Shown: one piece after another, positions 40,464-48,800 of the stretch
Position numbering within the stretch: position 1 is the stretch's first letter
How the letters are laid out: the number at the start of each line of letters is the position of its first letter
Assembly (NCBI RefSeq): GCF_000377645.1
Contig: NZ_KB898472.1
Location: 62,001 to 126,000 of the forward strand
Source of the DNA: Thiomonas sp. FB-6
Lineage (GTDB): Bacteria > Pseudomonadota > Gammaproteobacteria > Burkholderiales > Burkholderiaceae_C
DNA: 64,000 bases
Direction: 5' to 3'
Program-made: the position numbers and the translations under genes
Notes under the pieces: generated by a model
Seen by the model: only the letters and a program-made list of their open reading frames with translations
Told to the model about the DNA's origin: nothing
The model's database searches: none

Positions 40464-42263
40464 ATGTCGAGTACCGTGCTTGCGCGCAAGTGGCGCCCCA
40501 AGACCTTCGCCACCCTGGTCGGACAGGATCACGTGGTGCGTGCGCTGACCCACGCGCTGCAGCGGCGGCGCCTGCATCACGCCTATCTGTTCACCGGCAC
40601 GCGAGGCGTGGGCAAGACCACCCTCGCGCGCATCCTGGCCAAGTCGCTGAACTGCACCGGGCCCGATGGGCAGGGTGACATCACTTCCGAACCCTGCGGT
40701 GTGTGCCCCTCCTGCATGGAGATCGACGCCGGGCGCTTCGTCGACTACATCGAACTGGACGCCGCTTCCAACCGGGGCGTGGACGATATGACGCGTCTGC
40801 TCGAGCAGGCCGTCTACAAGCCCACGGCGGGGCGCTTCAAGGTCTACATGATCGACGAAGTGCACATGCTGTCCAACCACGCGTTCAACGCCATGCTGAA
40901 GACGCTCGAGGAGCCTCCGCAGCAGGTGATGTTCGTGCTCGCCACCACCGATCCGCAGAAGGTGCCGGTGACGGTGCTCAGCCGCTGCCTGCAGTTCGCG
41001 CTGAAGTCGGTGCCGCCGGCGGCGGTGGCCTCCCATCTGCAACAGGTGCTGCGGGCCGAGGGCGTGGACTTCGAGGCCGCGGCGCTGCAGGCGCTGGGCC
41101 GCGCGGCCCGCGGCTCGATGCGCGATGCGCTTTCGCTGGCCGACCAGGCCATCGCCTTCGATGCCGGGCGGGTCAGCGCCGAGGGCGTGCGCCAGATGCT
41201 GGGCGCCGTCGATTCCGGCTATCTGTTCGACCTGCTGCGCGCGCTCGCGCGCGGCGACGCGCAGGCGCTGCTGGAACTGGCCGAGACCATGGACCAGCGC
41301 GCGCTGTCGCTGCCGCAGGCGCTGGAGGACCTGGCCGCGCTGCTGCAGCGCCTGGCCGTGCTGCAGGTGCTGCCGCAGAGCCTGGACGAGCACGATCCCG
41401 ACGCCGCCGCGCTGCGTGAACTGGCGGCCGCGCTGTCCCCGGAGAGCCTGCAACTGACCTACAGCATGGTGCTGCAGGGCCGCGGCGAACTGGGCCTGGC
41501 GCCCGATCCGCTGTGCGGCTTCAGCATGGTGCTGCTGCGCCTGCTGTCCTTCGCGCCGGTGGCCACGGCGCCGGCGGCGCGCGCGCTGGACGCCATCGAG
41601 CGTGCGGCGCCGCGCGCGAATCCCGGCGAGCCCGCGCCGCGCCGGCTGTCCGGCGCCCAGGACGGCGCGGTGCCGCGCCAGGCCGAGGCCGCGCCGGTGC
41701 GCAGGTCCGCGCCCGACGCGGCGCCGGCCGTGCAGCCCGAGGCCGAGGCCCTCGCCGACCCGGAACCCGAGCCTGCGCCCGAGGGCCCCGAGCCCACCGC
41801 GGTGCAGGACGCGGGCGGGCCCGGCGCGCAGCCCCGGGGCGCGGAGATCGTGCCTGCCGGCGGCCAGACCGACGGCGAGCTCGGCGGCGAGATCGATGAC
41901 TGGCCCGCGCTGGCGCGCGAGCTGCCGCTGGTGGCGCTGGCGCGCAGCCTGGCGCTGCAAAGCGAGTGGGTGGGCGCGCGGGACGGCGCCTGGGTGCTGC
42001 GCGTGCCCAGCGAGCAGTACACGCGCGCCGGCGCGCTGGAGCGCGTGCAGGCGGCGCTGAGCGAGCGATTCGGCCGCTCGGTGGTGCTGCGCGTGGAGGT
42101 GGGCGCGGTGCGCGACACCGCGCACCTGCGCGCCGCGGCGCTGCGCGCGCAGCGCCAGCAGGAAGCCGAACAGGCCATCGCGGCCGACCCGCTGGTGCGT
42201 CAACTGGTCGACGAGTTGGGGGCGCAGATCGTGCCCGGCTCGGTGCGCCCGGTGGACGCCTGA
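40464..42263 (+). CDS. dnaX: DNA polymerase III subunit tau
   Basis: 599-residue clamp-loader ATPase that joins the replicase core to the sliding-clamp loader. N-terminal AAA+ domain: Walker A FTGTRGVGKTTLAR near residue 45, zinc-binding cysteines including CGVCPSC, Walker B MIDEVHMLSNHAF, sensor 1 VLATTDPQKVPVTVLSRC. A Pro/Ala/Glu-rich linker spans about residues 370-460. The C-terminal tau domain contains DDWPALARELPLVALARSLA. ATG 40464 gives the canonical MSSTVLARKWRPKTF start. I see no A-rich slippery site of the E. coli type, so a separate gamma product by frameshifting is not indicated. Confidence 0.96.
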   Translation: MSSTVLARKWRPKTFATLVGQDHVVRALTHALQRRRLHHAYLFTGTRGVGKTTLARILAKSLNCTGPDGQGDITSEPCGVCPSCMEIDAGRFVDYIELDAASNRGVDDMTRLLEQAVYKPTAGRFKVYMIDEVHMLSNHAFNAMLKTLEEPPQQVMFVLATTDPQKVPVTVLSRCLQFALKSVPPAAVASHLQQVLRAEGVDFEAAALQALGRAARGSMRDALSLADQAIAFDAGRVSAEGVRQMLGAVDSGYLFDLLRALARGDAQALLELAETMDQRALSLPQALEDLAALLQRLAVLQVLPQSLDEHDPDAAALRELAAALSPESLQLTYSMVLQGRGELGLAPDPLCGFSMVLLRLLSFAPVATAPAARALDAIERAAPRANPGEPAPRRLSGAQDGAVPRQAEAAPVRRSAPDAAPAVQPEAEALADPEPEPAPEGPEPTAVQDAGGPGAQPRGAEIVPAGGQTDGELGGEIDDWPALARELPLVALARSLALQSEWVGARDGAWVLRVPSEQYTRAGALERVQAALSERFGRSVVLRVEVGAVRDTAHLRAAALRAQRQQEAEQAIAADPLVRQLVDELGAQIVPGSVRPVDA

Positions 42264-42273
42264 TGTCCATGGC

Positions 42274-42297
42274 GCCGTCCCGGTATTCCGGGGCGGC
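42274..42297 (+). other. Hairpin between dnaX and ybaB
   Basis: 10-bp stem GCCGTCCCGG/CCGGGGCGGC with one G-T pair and a TATT loop, starting 11 bp after the dnaX stop and ending 50 bp before ybaB. It may attenuate read-through or set an RNA processing boundary. No T-run of terminator type follows. Confidence 0.45.
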
Positions 42298-42347
42298 ATT
42301 TCGCGGCGCACCGCGCCGCAACGACGATTTCGCACTCAGGAGCTTTC

Positions 42348-42677
42348 ATGTTCAACAAGGGACAACTCTCGGGCCTGATGAAGCAGGCCCAGGCCATGCA
42401 GGACAACATCAAGCGCGTGCAGGAGGAACTCGGGCGCATCGAGGTCGAGGGCCAGTCCGGCGCCGGCCTGGTGAAGGTGCTGATGAGCTGCAAGCACGAG
42501 GTGCGGCGGGTCGCCATCGACCCCAGCCTGCTCGGCGAGGACCGCGACATGCTGGAGGATCTGGTGGCAGCCGCCTTCAACGACGGGCTGCGCCGCGCCG
42601 AGGCCACGGCGCAGGAAAAGATGGCCGCGGCGACCGCCGGCATGCCGCTGCCCCCCGGCATGAAGCTGCCGTTCTGA
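42348..42677 (+). CDS. ybaB: YbaB/EbfC nucleoid-associated protein
   Basis: 109-residue dimeric DNA-binding protein of the YbaB/EbfC family. It shows [49 protein letters not shown] and the C-terminal [12 protein letters not shown]. It binds DNA and its exact role (nucleoid organisation, recombination) is unsettled. It lies between dnaX and recR, the standard dnaX-ybaB-recR operon, with AGGAG before the ATG. Confidence 0.97.
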
Positions 42678-42702
42678 GCTTCGAGCCCAAGCGGAGCAGC
42701 CC

Positions 42703-43317
42703 GTGAATCATGCGCAGGCCCCGACGCAGGTCCCGGCGCTGGACGCGCTGGTGGAGGCGCTGCGCGCCTTGCCCGGCGTGGGGCCGAAGACGGCCGCGCG
42801 CATGGCCTATCACCTGCTGCAGCACGACCGCGAAGCGGCCGAGGCGCTGCAGCTGTCGCTGCAGCGCGCGCTGCTGGCGGTGCGCCGCTGCACCCTGTGC
42901 AACACCTACACCGAGTCGGAGGTCTGCGCCACCTGTTCCGACACGCGCCGCGACAGGCGCCTGCTGTGCATCGTCGAGACCCCCGCCGACCAGGCTGCGG
43001 TGGAGCAGTCGATGAGCTACCGGGGCCTGTACTTCGTGCTCATGGGCCGGCTCAGTCCGCTGGACGGGATGGGGCCGAAGGACATCGGGCTGGACCGGCT
43101 GGTGCAGCGCCTGCGCGGGGATGGGGTGGAGGAGATCATCCTGGCCACCAACTTCACCAACGAGGGCGAGGCCACCGCGCATGTGATCGCCGAGACCCTG
43201 CGGCCGCTGGACCTGCGCATCACCCGACTCGCGCGCGGCGTGCCCTCCGGCGCCGAACTCGAATATGTGGACCTGGGCACCATCGCGCGGGCGCTGGTCG
43301 ACCGCCGCGGGGCCTGA
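42703..43317 (+). CDS. recR: Recombination mediator RecR
   Basis: 204-residue component of RecFOR, loading RecA on gapped DNA. The N-terminal helix-hairpin-helix contains [17 protein letters not shown], the zinc finger is C-x2-C...C-x2-C ([20 protein letters not shown]), and the Toprim domain has [11 protein letters not shown] and [13 protein letters not shown]. The start is GTG 42703, after GCGGAG. Its TGA directly abuts the TTG proposed for the next gene. Confidence 0.97.
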
Positions 43318-43995
43318 TTGAGCTCCACCGGCCCGCACGCCTGCGGCTCCAGCGCCGCCCGCGGCGCAGGGCCCGCGCTGTACCTGATCACCCCCCAGCC
43401 CGAGGGAGCGGATGCGGCCTTCCTGCAGGCGCTGCGCGCCAGCCTGCAGGGCCGCGAGCCGGGCTCGCTGCTGGTGCAGTTCCGTGCCCAGGGCCTGGAG
43501 CCCGCCCGTTGGCGCCGGCTGGCCGACGGGGTGCGGGAGATCTGCCTCGAACGCGGCGCGCCGCTGCTGCTCGGGGCTGGCGGGCTGCCTGGCGCCGACG
43601 CTGCGCAGCGCATGCGCTGCGCGTGCGAACTGGGCGCGCAGGGGCTGCAGCTGCCGTCGCGCCTGCTGGCGCAGCCGGACTGGCGCGAGGCCTGCCTGGG
43701 CAGGCCGGCGGGCCTGCTGGTGTCGGCCTCCTGCCACGATGCGGCGCAACTGGAGGCGGCTGCGGCCCTGCGCGCCGATTTCGCCACCGTCTCGCCGGTC
43801 CTGCCCACGATCAGCCATCCGGGCGCGCCGGGCCTGGGATGGGCTCGGCTGGGCGAGCTCTGCCGCGGGACACGGCTGCCGGTGTACGCGCTGGGCGGGC
43901 TCCGCGCGGGGCATCTGGCGCTGGCGCTCGAGGCGGGCGCCGCGGGCGTCGCGGGCATCCGCGGGCTGTGGGAACGCGGTGGGGATGCGGCGTAA
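43318..43995 (+). CDS. Stand-alone ThiE/TenI-like TMP synthase family protein
   Basis: 225-residue TIM-barrel protein of the thiamine-phosphate synthase/TenI family. Strand 1 is LYLITP, and later segments are LLVQFRAQGL, GLQLPSRLL, LVSASCHDAAQLEAA, FATVSPVLPTISHPGAPGLGW and VYALGGL. The SPVLPTxSHPGxPGLGW pattern and the GIRGLW end match the C-terminal domain fused to MutT-type Nudix hydrolases in many proteobacteria. Here no Nudix domain precedes it. The K and R phosphate-binding pattern of true ThiE is not obvious, so enzymatic synthesis of thiamine phosphate is doubtful. Start TTG 43318 is the only in-frame start before strand 1 and directly follows recR; uncertain. Confidence 0.72.
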   Translation: MSSTGPHACGSSAARGAGPALYLITPQPEGADAAFLQALRASLQGREPGSLLVQFRAQGLEPARWRRLADGVREICLERGAPLLLGAGGLPGADAAQRMRCACELGAQGLQLPSRLLAQPDWREACLGRPAGLLVSASCHDAAQLEAAAALRADFATVSPVLPTISHPGAPGLGWARLGELCRGTRLPVYALGGLRAGHLALALEAGAAGVAGIRGLWERGGDAA

Positions 43996-44018
43996 TATGC
44001 GCGAATTCGCATTTACGC
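43990..44018. promoter_or_regulatory. Nested dyads upstream of the NHL gene
   Basis: A perfect 10-base palindrome GCGAATTCGC (44001-44010) is enclosed by arms GCGTAA (43990-43995) and TTACGC (44013-44018). This AT-richer patch starts inside the end of the ThiE-like gene and ends 13 bp before the NHL start codon. It looks like an operator or promoter-proximal hairpin. Confidence 0.5.
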
Positions 44019-44031
44019 AAGTAAAACTCCT

Positions 44032-45111
44032 ATGAGTCTGCGCCGCCGCCAGTTCCTGCAAGCCGCCTGCACCGTCGCCGCTTTCGGCGCTTCAGCCTGG
44101 TCGTCGTCGGCGCGGGCGGAGCAGGCAGGCAGCCTGAGCCTGTGGGCGGGCGACCTGCGCCAGCACGGGCATGTGGACGGGCTGGGCGCGGCCGCGCGCT
44201 TTTTCGACCCGCGCGGCCTGTGCGCCGACCCCCACGGCGGTGTGCTGGTGGCCGACGCCGCCAACGCCACGGTGCGCCGCATCGGCGCGGACGGCAGGGT
44301 GAGCAGCCTGGCAGGGGTGCCGGAATTGCGCAAGACCGTGGAGGGGCCCGCCGCCCAGGCCGGCTTCGTCGGCCCCGACGCGCTGGCCGTGGGAGCCGAC
44401 GGCAGCATCTACGTGGCCGACTCCTACGCCAACACCCTGCGCCTGCTGCGTGACGGCACCGTGAGCCTGCTGGCCGGCGCCGACCAGTTGCCCGGCTATG
44501 CGGACGGCCCCGGGGCGCAGGCCCGTTTCAATCACCCGGTGGGGATCGCGGTGGATCCGCGCAGCGGCGACCTGCTGGTGGCCGACGCCTACAACCACAC
44601 CATCCGCCGCGTCGGGCGCGACGGGCTGGTGTCCACGGTAGCGGGCACGCCGGGCATCAACGAGCACCGCGACGGACCGGCACGCCACGCCCTGTTCAAC
44701 ACCCCGGTGGGCGTCGCCGTGCACGGCGACGGCAGCGTCTACGTCAGCGAATACTTCAACCACGACATCCGGCGCATCAGCCCGAAGGGCGAGGTGAGCA
44801 CGGTGGCGGGAATGCCCGGCCAGCCCGGCGACCTCGACGGGCCGGGGCCGCGCGCGCAGTTGCGCAGGCCGCAGCAGATCGCCTTCGACGCCGCCGGCGT
44901 GCTCTACATCGCCGATGCCGGCAACCTGGAACTGCGCGCCCTGGGCGGCGACGGAGTGCTGCGCACCGTGGCCGGCACCCAGGGCGGCGAACTCGCCGCG
45001 CCGGGCCCGCTGCCGGCCGCGCTGGGCGCTCCCTATGGCGTGGCCCCCGGCCCGCAAGGCAGCATCGCCGTGAGCAGCGGCCAGGCCGTGCTGCTGGTGC
45101 GCAGCGCCTAG
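44032..45111 (+). CDS. Tat-exported NHL-repeat beta-propeller protein
   Basis: 359-residue protein with a twin-arginine signal (SLRRRQFLQAACTVAAFG, cleavage near ARAE, residue 30). The mature part is six NHL repeats of about 50 residues. Each has a DGxGxxARFxxPxGxAVDxxG turn, a YVADxxNxxIRRI strand and an STVAG end, predicting a six-bladed propeller. Repeats 3 and 4 are the most regular. NHL propellers bind proteins or small ligands, and some are enzymes; no function can be given. Tat export suggests folding, possibly with a cofactor, before export. A nested dyad lies directly upstream. Confidence 0.85.
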   Translation: MSLRRRQFLQAACTVAAFGASAWSSSARAEQAGSLSLWAGDLRQHGHVDGLGAAARFFDPRGLCADPHGGVLVADAANATVRRIGADGRVSSLAGVPELRKTVEGPAAQAGFVGPDALAVGADGSIYVADSYANTLRLLRDGTVSLLAGADQLPGYADGPGAQARFNHPVGIAVDPRSGDLLVADAYNHTIRRVGRDGLVSTVAGTPGINEHRDGPARHALFNTPVGVAVHGDGSVYVSEYFNHDIRRISPKGEVSTVAGMPGQPGDLDGPGPRAQLRRPQQIAFDAAGVLYIADAGNLELRALGGDGVLRTVAGTQGGELAAPGPLPAALGAPYGVAPGPQGSIAVSSGQAVLLVRSA

Positions 45112-45112
45112 G

Positions 45113-45140
45113 CGCCGCGCCCCGACGTGCGGGGGCGGCG
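45113..45140. terminator. GC-rich hairpin between NHL gene and queF
   Basis: CGCCGC and CCCC pair with GGGG and GCGGCG around a 7-base loop with a one-base bulge, in the 56-bp gap between convergent genes. Likely a bidirectional terminator; no T-run. Confidence 0.45.
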
Positions 45141-45167
45141 GCTGCGTCCCGCGCGCGCCAGCCGGCC

Positions 45168-45665
45168 TCAGCCGGAGTGCGGCAGCGCGGGCTGGGCGGT
45201 GGCGAAGCGGCTCAGGTCCACCGTGGAGGCCTGCTTCCAGCCGCGCTTGCGGTGTTCCACCACCACGTTGGTGTAGATGCCGCCCCGCACGTACCACTGC
45301 GCGGTCACGCGCAGGTAGCGCGGCGCGATGGCCTTCACGATGTCGTCCAGGATGGTGTTGGTCACCTTCTCGTGGAACGCGCCTTCGTTGCGGTAGCTCC
45401 ACATGTACAGCTTCAGGCTCTTGAGCTCGATGCAGGCGCGGTCGGGGATCATGTCCAGGTCGATGCGCGCGAAGTCGGGCTGGCCGGTCAGCGGGCACAG
45501 GCAGGTGAACTCGGGCACCTGCATGTGGATGTGATAGTCGCGCCCGGGGGCCGGGTTCGGGAAGGTCTGCAGGGTCTTGGCGGGCTGGGTGACGACAGAC
45601 GGTGCGCGCTCGGCGCCGGCGGCGGCCTTCGGACTCTTGGGACTCTTGGGGCTCTTGGAATTCAT
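45168..45665 (-). CDS. queF: NADPH-dependent 7-cyano-7-deazaguanine reductase QueF
   Basis: 165-residue unimodular (YkvM-type) QueF that reduces preQ0 to preQ1 in queuosine synthesis. The substrate-binding cysteine is in [14 protein letters not shown]. The family signature [20 protein letters not shown] carries the catalytic and NADPH-contact residues. The first 13 residues are an SPK repeat encoded by a 9-bp tandem repeat (45631-45657), not part of the conserved fold. The gene faces the NHL gene and is divergent from smc. A GATAAT hexamer at 45710-45715 on the minus strand is a good -10 candidate. Confidence 0.95.
45631..45657. repeat. 9-bp tandem repeat in the queF N-terminus
   Basis: Three units GGACTCTTG, GGACTCTTG and GGGCTCTTG encode the SPK repeat at the QueF N-terminus. 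Copy number may vary between strains. Confidence 0.8.
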
Positions 45666-45776
45666 GGCTGCGGGACCCTGGAAATCGGGCGGACATCGGG
45701 AAAACGCGCATTATCCGGCAGCGGGCCGCCAGGCGCAGTCGCCGGCCACGGGCCCTGGGCGCCGCGGCGCGGGTGC

Positions 45777-45847
45777 TATCATGCCGGACGCGGCCCACGC
45801 CGCATATTTTTTGTTTGAAATCCGATATTTAAGCGAGTTTCAGCAAC
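45777..45847 (+). promoter_or_regulatory. Promoter and AT-rich leader of smc
   Basis: TATCAT at 45777-45782 is a -10 candidate. The leader that follows includes CATATTTTTTGTTTG and ATATTTAAG, a marked AT-rich island in a GC-rich region, ending at the GTG start. The low structure could substitute for a ribosome-binding site, since no good GGAG is present. Confidence 0.45.
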
Positions 45848-48800
45848 GTGCGACTGTCCACCATCAAGCTCGCCGGGTTCAAGTCTTTCGCCGAGCCGGC
45901 GGCGTTCAACCTGCCGGGGCAGCGCGTGGGCGTGGTGGGGCCCAACGGCTGCGGAAAATCCAACATCATCGACGCCGTGCGCTGGGTGCTGGGCGAATCG
46001 CGCGCCTCCGAGCTGCGCGGCGATTCGATGCTGGACGTGATCTTCAACGGCTCGGGCACGCGCAAGCCGGCCGGGCGCTGCAGCGTGGAACTGGTGTTCG
46101 ACAACAGCGACCACCGGGTCAGCGGCAGTTTCGGGCAGTACACGGAAATCGCTGTCAAGCGCGTGCTCACGCGTGACGGCGGGTCGAGCTATTTCATCAA
46201 CAACCAGCCGGTGCGCCGGCGCGACGTGCAGGACATCTTCCTCGGCACCGGGCTGGGCTCGCGCTCCTACGCGATCATCGGCCAGGGCACGATCAGCCGC
46301 ATCATCGAGTCGCGTCCCGAGGAACTGCGGGTGATGCTGGAAGAGGCGGCCGGTGTGTCCAAGTACAAGGAACGCCGCCGCGAGACCGAGAACCGGCTGC
46401 ACGGCACGCGCGAGAACCTGCTGCGGGTGCACGACATCCTGCGCGAGCTCGGCGGCCAACTGGACAAGCTCGAGCAGCAGGCGGCGGTGGCGCAGCGCTA
46501 CAACGAGTTGCAGCAGCAAAGCCAGTTCAGCCAGCACGCGTTGTGGCTGCTGCGCCTGCGCGAGGCCGAGCAGCGCCAGGGGCGCCTGCGCGAGCAGGGC
46601 GGCCGCGCCCAGCTGGAGCTGGAGCAGCACACTGCGCGCCTGCGCGCCGCCGAGGCCGAGCTGGAACAGTTGCGCCAGGCGCAGTACGCCTCGGCCGAGA
46701 CCCTCAACGGCGCGCAGGCCGAGTTGTATGCCGCGCAGGCCGAGGTGGCGCGCCTGGAGGCGGAGATCCGCTACGTCGTGGAGGCGCGCGAACGCGCGCA
46801 GCGCGGCCACGCCGAGCTGCGGGATCAACTCGGCCAGTGGCAGCAGCGCCAGCAGCAGGCGCGCGCCGATGCCGAGACCGCCGCCATCGAGATCGAGACC
46901 GCCGAGCAGTCCCAGCAGCAGGCGGCGGCGCGCGTGGAGGAGCAGGGCGAGCTGATTCCCGCGCTGGAGGCGCGCCTGGCCGACGCGCAGATGCGCGCAG
47001 CCGAATTCCGTGCGCAGGCGGCGGCGGCGCAGCAGCGCCTGCAGGCCGAGGCCGAGCGCCAGCGCAACCTGGGCCAGCAGCGCCAGGCGGTGGAGCAGCG
47101 CATGCAGCGCCTGCAGGCCGAGCGCCGGCAGCTGGCCGCGCCCGACCTGGCGCGCCTGGCCGAGCTCGACCAGCAGCATGCGGCGCTGAGCACGGCCTGC
47201 GAGCGCGCGCAGGCCGAGGTCGACGAAGGCCAGCAACGCGCCCCGCGCCTGCAGGCCGAGCGGCAGCAGGCGCAGCATCAGGCGCAGCAGGCTGCGGCCA
47301 CGCTGACCGCCACCACCGCGCGCATGCAGGCGCTCAAGGCCTTGCAGGAAAAGGTCATGACCGAAGGGCGCCTGCAGCCCTGGCTGGCTCGTCATGGGCT
47401 GGAATCCATGGCGCGGCTGTGGAGTCGCATTCAGGTCGAGCCGGGCTGGGAGGACGCGCTGGAGGCGGCGCTGCGCGAGCGCCTGGCGGCGCTGGAGCTG
47501 CGCGCGCTGGACGGTGCCGGCGCGCTGGCGGCCGACCCGCCGCCGGCCAAGCTGAGCTTTTTCTCGCCGCCGCAGGGCGCCGTGCCGCCCGCCGCCCCGG
47601 CGGGCCTGCGCCCGCTGGCCGCGCTGCTTCGCGTGGGCGACCCCGGGCTGCGCGCGGTGCTGGAGGACTGGCTGGCCGCGGTGTACACGGCCGATTCGCT
47701 GGCCCAGGCGCTGCAGCGTCGCGACAGCCTGCCGCCGGGAGCCGTGCTGGCGACGCCCGAGGGCCACATGGTGGCGCGCCACAGCGTCAGCCTGTACGCC
47801 GCCGACAGCGAGCAGGCCGGCCTGCTGGCGCGGGCGCAGGAGATCGACAACCTGGAGCGCCAGCAGCGCGCGCAGCAATTGCTGGCCGGACAGGCGCAGG
47901 ACGCCGCGGCGCTGGCCGAGGCCGAGTTCGCGCGCGCGCAAGAGCAGCTGTCCCAGGTCACGCGCGACCTGCAATCGCTCACCCAACAGGCCCACGGCGT
48001 GCAGGTGGATCGCCTGAAGCTGCAACAGCAGCAGCAGGAATCCAGCGCCCGCGCCGAACGCCTGGACGCGGACCTGGCCGAGGCCGCCGCGCAGGAGGAG
48101 GAATTGCAGATCCAGCTGGCCGAGAGCGAGGCGCGCTTCGAGCAGCTCGACGCCGAGCTGGGCAACAGCCAGCAGCAGCATGCCGACCTGGATACCGTGG
48201 CGCTGCGCGAGCAGTCCGAACTGGCGCAGGCGCGGGCCACGCTGCGCAACCTGGAGCAGGAGCAGGCGGAGAGCGCCTACGCGGTGCGCAGCCTGCAGCA
48301 GCGCATGGCCGACGCGCAGCGCATGGACGCCACCGCGCAGCAGCAGATCGACGCCGCGCAGGAACGCCTGCGCGCGGCCGAGGAAGAACTCGAACGCCTG
48401 CACGACGAAAGCGCCCGCGCCGGACTGCAGGAGGCGCTGGAGGCGCGCGAGCAGGCGCAGCAACGGCTGCAAGCCCGGCGCGCCGAGCACGACGAGCTCA
48501 GCGCCAGGGTGCGCGCCACCGAAGAGCAGCGCGTGCTGCTGGAGCGCGAGCTGGAGCCGCTGCGCGCGGCCATCGGCCAGCGCCAGCTCGACGAGCAGGA
48601 GGCACGGCTGCAGGCGCAGCAGTTCGAGCAGCAACTGGCCGAGGCGCAGGTGGACCTGGCCGCGCTGCAGCAGGAGCTGGAGGCGCGCAGCGACCTGGCG
48701 CCCGAGCAACTGGCGCGCGACGCCCAGCGCCTGCAGCGCGAGATCGCCGCGCTGGGCGCGGTGAACCTGGCCGCGCTGGACGAGTTGCAGCAGTCGCGCG

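Follow-up and report, generated by a model that had tools for sequence, protein, structure and literature searches.

A conserved, promoter-like DNA block with partial dyad symmetry before a twin-arginine NHL propeller gene in Thiomonas

The propeller gene, its neighbours and the dyad

The gene analyzed here, which encodes an NHL beta-propeller, lies in a 64,000-nt window of Thiomonas sp. FB-6 (the whole stretch of DNA that was analyzed), where it follows a TMP-TENI gene on the same strand and converges with queF (Table 1). Its ATG at 44032 is separated by a 13-nt spacer (44019-44031) from an imperfect dyad, the GCGTAA/TTACGC arms of which enclose a perfect 10-bp palindrome. This arrangement had been pointed out in a first-pass annotation, together with a twin-arginine signal on a six-bladed propeller, and both descriptions were borne out: the arms, the palindrome and the spacer are present in the sequence, twin arginines, as read by eye, occur in all 27 visible N-termini among 28 Thiomonas genomes, and the structure model of the protein has six blades.

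Table 1. Coordinates of the genes and sequence elements at the propeller locus (positions within the window)
Feature	Position	Strand	Remarks
TMP-TENI gene (thiamine monophosphate synthase-like, 'thiE'), 225 aa	43318..43995	+	Upstream of the propeller gene; stop inside left arm of the dyad
Imperfect dyad GCGTAATATGCGCGAATTCGCATTTACGC	43990..44018	+	Pairing from fold, compared across species
Outer arms of the dyad, GCGTAA / TTACGC	43990-43995 / 44013-44018	+	
Proposed -10 hexamer TAATAT	43993..43998	+	Overlaps thiE stop codon (43993-43995)
Inner arms of the dyad, ATGCG / CGCAT	43997-44001 / 44008-44012	+	T43996 bulged
Perfect 10-bp palindrome GCGAATTCGC	44001..44010	+	
Second conserved element ATTCGCAT	44005..44012	+	Putative transcript start/early leader
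Twin-arginine six-bladed NHL beta-propeller gene, 359 aa	44032..45111	+	
queF (preQ1 synthase, QueF-II)	45168..45665	-	Convergent neighbour; conserved synteny

The propeller gene was detected in all 28 genomes of the genus, with one match each; the named relatives comprise Thiomonas delicata DSM 16361, two Thiomonas sp. MAGs and MAGs labelled Proteobacteria, Betaproteobacteria or Burkholderiales. At the family level, 25 of 150 genomes, two of them from the genus, matched the propeller profile at 1e-20, where up to 13 candidates were scored in each genome. Among the candidates scored outside the genus, one genome (G075) matched nearly the whole profile at 4e-118 and another (G100), within a 786-aa frame, matched it from position 9 to 355 at 4e-56; the remaining matches were weaker, partial or located in longer frames.

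The gene order ybaB-recR-(thiE)-propeller-queF-smc, with queF convergent, was observed in 25 named loci as far as their contigs reach, with the propeller flanked in almost all cases by recR (or thiE) and queF-smc. The exception is T. delicata (L097), in which the propeller comes after recR but no queF or smc match was found within 5 kb downstream. Of the 14 named loci from the window's clade, 13 have a thiE match ahead of the propeller, as does one other locus, L098. The TMP-TENI gene scored best against Nudix-family model PRK08999 (151 bits, under the cut-off of 245), where the match covers the C-terminal part of the model; this ORF gave no Nudix match, and its similarity ends near residue 190 in several relatives. 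In addition, the gap between the propeller gene and queF, which converge, contains a G+C-rich stem-loop without a T-run (45113-45140); folding of the 71-nt region was not better than that of shuffled sequences.

The outer arms and the inner palindrome have different axes, being centered at 44004 and 44005.5, respectively. The best pairing of the dyad consists of 6+5 pairs with one bulged base, and the same pairing was chosen when the 29-mer was folded alone as RNA (-11.4 kcal/mol, z -2.11); in its 71-nt context, the fold was unremarkable (z -1.11). A single copy of the arms pattern GCGTAA-N10..24-TTACGC is present in the window, whereas 100 shuffles give an expectation of 0.01. The palindrome with at most one mismatch occurred six times against 4.19 expected and was thus unremarkable when considered alone. 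Elsewhere in the window, seven sites can form 6+5-pair hairpins; judged by eye, all are G+C-rich.

Conservation of the block and loss of pairing

The 25-nt core of the block, TAATATNCGNGNATTCGCATNTACG (at most three mismatches), was found in 11 of the 28 genomes, once each and always directly before the propeller gene; away from this gene, neither the core nor its backwards control pattern had any site in the 28 genomes. The 17 genomes without the core are four from the window's own clade (G009, G011, G014, and G019) and 13 others. Over the 29-nt block, the window and four relatives (L008, L009, L010, and L012) are identical at 28/29 positions, while their agreement at fourfold-degenerate sites of the propeller gene is 0.58-0.67. 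The longest run identical in all five is 28 nt in the block versus 13 nt in the coding sequence, although in single species pairs 10-39 of 1064 coding windows also reach at least 28/29. A chance palindrome within an unconstrained spacer would agree with the expectation of about four inner palindromes per window (one mismatch) and with the arms pattern, which is not enriched in the genus (eight sites in 6 of 28 genomes; 84 for the backwards control), but such an origin is hardly credible, being contradicted by the near-complete conservation of the block in relatives that have diverged to this extent at fourfold sites.

Phylogenetic analysis of the protein split the genus into the window's clade (clade A, n=15) and another clade (clade B, n=12); L028, which begins at a contig edge, was omitted from the tree and from the upstream comparison, and 27 of the 28 loci were used. 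The clade A alignment (A2) contained 13 distinct sequences from 15 species, L008, L009 and L010 having been merged into a single row as they share one 29-mer, and its invariant columns were located in TA-TAT, in AT-CG-AT and at one A of TACG. Five of the six TAATAT columns were invariant, and the sixth was kept in 12 of 13 rows. Judged from these alignments, the DNA block is real, constrained and gene-specific, and resembles a control region.

The pairing behaved differently from the sequence. Across the 15 species of clade A, all 11 pairs are kept in two species, ten in six, nine in one, eight in two, and five or six in four; thus, pairing drops from 11/11 to 5/11, the constant part across relatives being TAATAT and AT-CG-AT. 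In the 11 block-bearing species, the varying pairs (columns 1-29, 2-28, 6-24, and 10-21) always changed on one side without compensation. Double-sided changes affected 3 of 11 pairs and 4 of 143 cells; all of these cells come from the four rows that diverge most, and two are G-U. The covariation score and the paired fraction were somewhat above those of shuffles, 25/500 and 19/500 of which, respectively, reached them, and sliding the register by -2 gave a covariation score of 0.094, above the 0.086 of the true register. Moreover, the 29-mer of L006 folded at -13.6 kcal/mol (z -3.89), better than all 200 shuffles. Given this fold and a pair count above the shuffles, the block may have a structural or operator role; the constraint, however, probably does not act on the dyad symmetry itself. 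A terminator or RNA hairpin was also considered and rejected, since no T-run follows the dyad and, of the 29-mers from seven relatives, four folded weakly (-1.1 to -5.1 kcal/mol), although that of L006 folded strongly.

The dyad had been proposed as a marker by which co-regulated genes could be found, and searches of the genome and the genus revealed the element at no other gene. A second block site with fewer than three mismatches was not found in the own genome, where a shorter block pattern gave five sites, namely, the exact propeller site and four with three mismatches. Two of the eight arms sites in the genus are located at the propeller gene (G000 and G021), and the remaining six have different interiors. 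The 14-nt core TGCGCGAATTCGCA had three exact sites in the genome and 107 sites with at most two mismatches, versus 28 for its backwards control; the other exact copies are L030, the coding start of a 355-aa ORF, and L031. The inner stem ATGCG-N4..8-CGCAT was found at no fewer than 62 genome sites, versus 4 for the backwards control. A family of looser inner-stem sites is possible, and a multi-gene regulon is not indicated by this evidence. One 14-nt core copy with one mismatch (L035:1501-1514; G000:C3:150964-150977) has no TAATAT and is located between two other-strand genes, by eye yidD and yidC, in the spacer before yidC.

These patterns bear on whether the dyad could be an operator, bound over the -10 hexamer by a dedicated, gene-specific regulator of the repressor type, ancestral in the clade and lost in some lineages. 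Such an operator would account for the eight clade A species that hold 10 or 11 pairs, in which the symmetry covers both conserved words, for a single-copy block conserved over 25-29 nt, which is more than a -10 box requires, and for the frequent inner stem. It is less easily reconciled with the uncompensated changes at the four varying pairs, with the lack of a second genomic site, and with the four clade A species that keep TAATAT or TATTAT with just five or six pairs; a dedicated single-gene operator is thus possible but unlikely. What stands of the first-pass proposal of the dyad as a control candidate is a real, conserved and gene-specific block, and what is not supported is the symmetry as the property that counts, because the pairing decays and the -10-like hexamer stays. 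Likewise, lack of conservation of the dyad, which had been named as an argument against the proposal, holds for the full 11-pair dyad (2 of 15 clade species, with six more keeping ten pairs) but not for the 25-nt sequence. A dyad seen in one genome can therefore be mistaken for an operator when its conserved parts are single promoter words.

A putative promoter for the propeller gene

Sigma-70-type promoters of beta-proteobacteria share a -10 consensus, and by this consensus we take TAATAT to be the -10 hexamer of the propeller gene. Within the 70 nt examined upstream of each start, 26 of 27 Thiomonas regions contained TA[AGT][TC]AT, located 34-48 nt 5' of the start, the only region without it (L021) carrying TAGGAT; the distance for L022 was counted from a start two codons too early and is 6 nt short, which leaves the range unaffected. 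At a similar distance, clade B has TAGCAT (10 regions), TAGTAT (1) or TAGGAT (1), so that TAGCAT or TAGTAT accounts for 11 of 12. In three clade B loci (L023, L026, and L027), GTACGGAA after TAGCAT/TAGTAT resembles the stretch after the second conserved element in the window's clade, and ATTCGCATTTACGGAAATAA of L008 and ATTAGCATGTACGGAAATAA of L026, both within 75 nt 5' of the propeller start, differ at 2 of 20 bases. The -10 box may have shifted by ∼14 bp between the clades, and this possible shift weakens a strict column-by-column argument.

The hexamer pattern TANNAT is scarce in the G+C-rich window, with 19 sites over both strands of 64 kb. In 3,873 nt upstream of 32 genes (from crude gene calls), four sense sites versus one antisense site were counted; the short spacer of the propeller itself is not among the upstream regions with matches, and the reversed pattern is useless as a control because TANNAT reads identically backwards. 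As a comparison, the smc upstream region has TATCAT in the window and in 23/23 loci compared (L097, without an smc match, and L098, with one, were outside the comparison), and since this region sits between divergent genes, TATCAT would be only presumptively the smc promoter. Thus, the reading of TAATAT as a -10 hexamer is based on the presence of TA[AGT][TC]AT in 26 of 27 regions, the rarity of TANNAT and the smc TATCAT control. The segment before smc (45763-45847) also contains a conserved TGCTATCAT box of the extended -10 type, together with another conserved word, AAATC, in the window and 23 loci.

No -35 hexamer was recognisable at 16-18 nt, and a promoter scan of 42000-46000 gave no site. 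Promoters with a -10 element and no -35 hexamer exist and are missed by such a scan, so the absence of a -35 lowers the promoter claim to a degree. Compared with sigma-70-type beta-proteobacterial promoters, the block is alike in having a TA--AT hexamer at a near-constant distance from the start, and it differs in lacking a recognisable -35, in its second conserved word downstream and in its partial dyad symmetry. Collectively, the region looks like an ordinary, conserved, promoter-like region in which the symmetry is incidental or clade-specific.

In the reading that we consider probable, the dyad would coincide with a conserved promoter of the sigma-70 type that serves the propeller gene alone. 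Transcription would start near 44005, and ATTCGCATNTACG..AAAT would form an early transcribed leader of ∼25-30 nt. The symmetry would mostly be a side effect of the conservation of two words, TAATATGCG and CGCATTTACG, and would decay where one partner drifts; the protein would be exported in folded form via Tat and would act as a six-bladed NHL scaffold for binding in the periplasm. If so, a striking palindrome becomes a testable promoter map for a propeller kept by all 28 genus genomes examined. A more speculative variant, which seems rather doubtful, is that a regulator bound to the dyad over the -10 hexamer switches the propeller alone, and that the other clade has its -10 box ∼14 bp downstream as TAGCAT, without an operator.

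The propeller could also have no promoter of its own and be read from recR-thiE, in which case the read-through transcript would contain the block as a leader or as an RNA hairpin. Although the propeller gene follows thiE (or recR, where no thiE match is present) closely on the same strand, and the isolated 29-mers of the window and L006 fold well, the in-context fold is not special, the fold is weak in most of the relatives' 29-mers tested, and a -10-like hexamer is present in nearly every upstream region, making this scenario improbable. A short upstream ORF starting at ATG 43997 (MREFAFTQVKLL, 12 codons, its stop overlapping the propeller start) was rejected, since the ATG is present in just 9 of 15 clade A species and its frame relative to the propeller varies.

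Predicted fold and possible role of the propeller

The AlphaFold2 model (16 sequences) had a pLDDT of 91.7, the signal region being of low confidence. Six blades were assigned from the strand order of the model, in which an N-terminal strand closes the last blade. Consistent with an NHL-repeat propeller, the protein scored far above the cut-offs, with 88.9 bits for Pfam NHL (PF01436; cut-off 20) and 91.9 bits for teneurin NHL (PF25021), and an NHL match was present in 16/16 aligned members (E 0.001). Two other families were marginal, with no single stretch passing: SMP-30/gluconolactonase-like PF08450 (27.0 bits, cut-off 26.3; 15/16 members at E 0.001) and phytase-like PF13449 (28.0 bits, cut-off 27.6). 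For the window protein, Virginiamycin B lyase (29.1 bits) was below its cut-off of 50, and similarity to the scytonemin-related NCBIfam families ScyF and ScyD-ScyE was weak (68.0 and 54.4 bits, below cut-offs of 350 and 80).

Among the best 50 solved chains, those with NHL domains had Z scores of about 30-42; unlike them, the window protein is a stand-alone propeller with a twin-arginine signal. The nearest solved relative by sequence profile was the teneurin-like protein TLP (PDB 9ifo and 9pt5; E about 1e-48), which also ranked first in Foldseek at 33% identity, but there the propeller belongs to a larger chain of >2,000 residues. The best fold matches by VIA-align were the NHL domains of SOQ1 from the plant thylakoid lumen (Z 42.3, rmsd 1.6 over 307 residues) and of NHLRC2 (Z 41.1, rmsd 1.9 over 304 residues). 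According to PMC6107167, NHLRC2 and SOQ1 have a thioredoxin-like domain with CCINC, CC(I/V)NC, fused to the propeller, and NHL repeats often serve as protein-protein interaction modules. The window protein differs in that no thioredoxin-like family is among the Pfam matches of its ORF. A split SOQ1-like pair with a separate thioredoxin was rejected, as no CC(I/V)NC motif was found in the window or in L127-L134, the loci of the genome's eight Thioredoxin_8 matches.

When the structure matches were looked for by name in a plasmid collection, 29 records were obtained, none of which covered 80% of the query, and no paper linking Thiomonas with NHL repeats or NHL with Tat was found in the literature searched. 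An enzyme signature was not established for the propeller. Its N-terminus, MSLRRRQFLQ, contains the twin arginines, and a tatC gene is present in the genome, by which Tat export is possible. Considering the model and these comparisons, this protein is most likely a binding scaffold that Tat exports in folded form to the periplasm. In one relative (L023 of G006), the propeller signal ends in a lipobox-like LWLAC-S, and this propeller might be a Tat lipoprotein.
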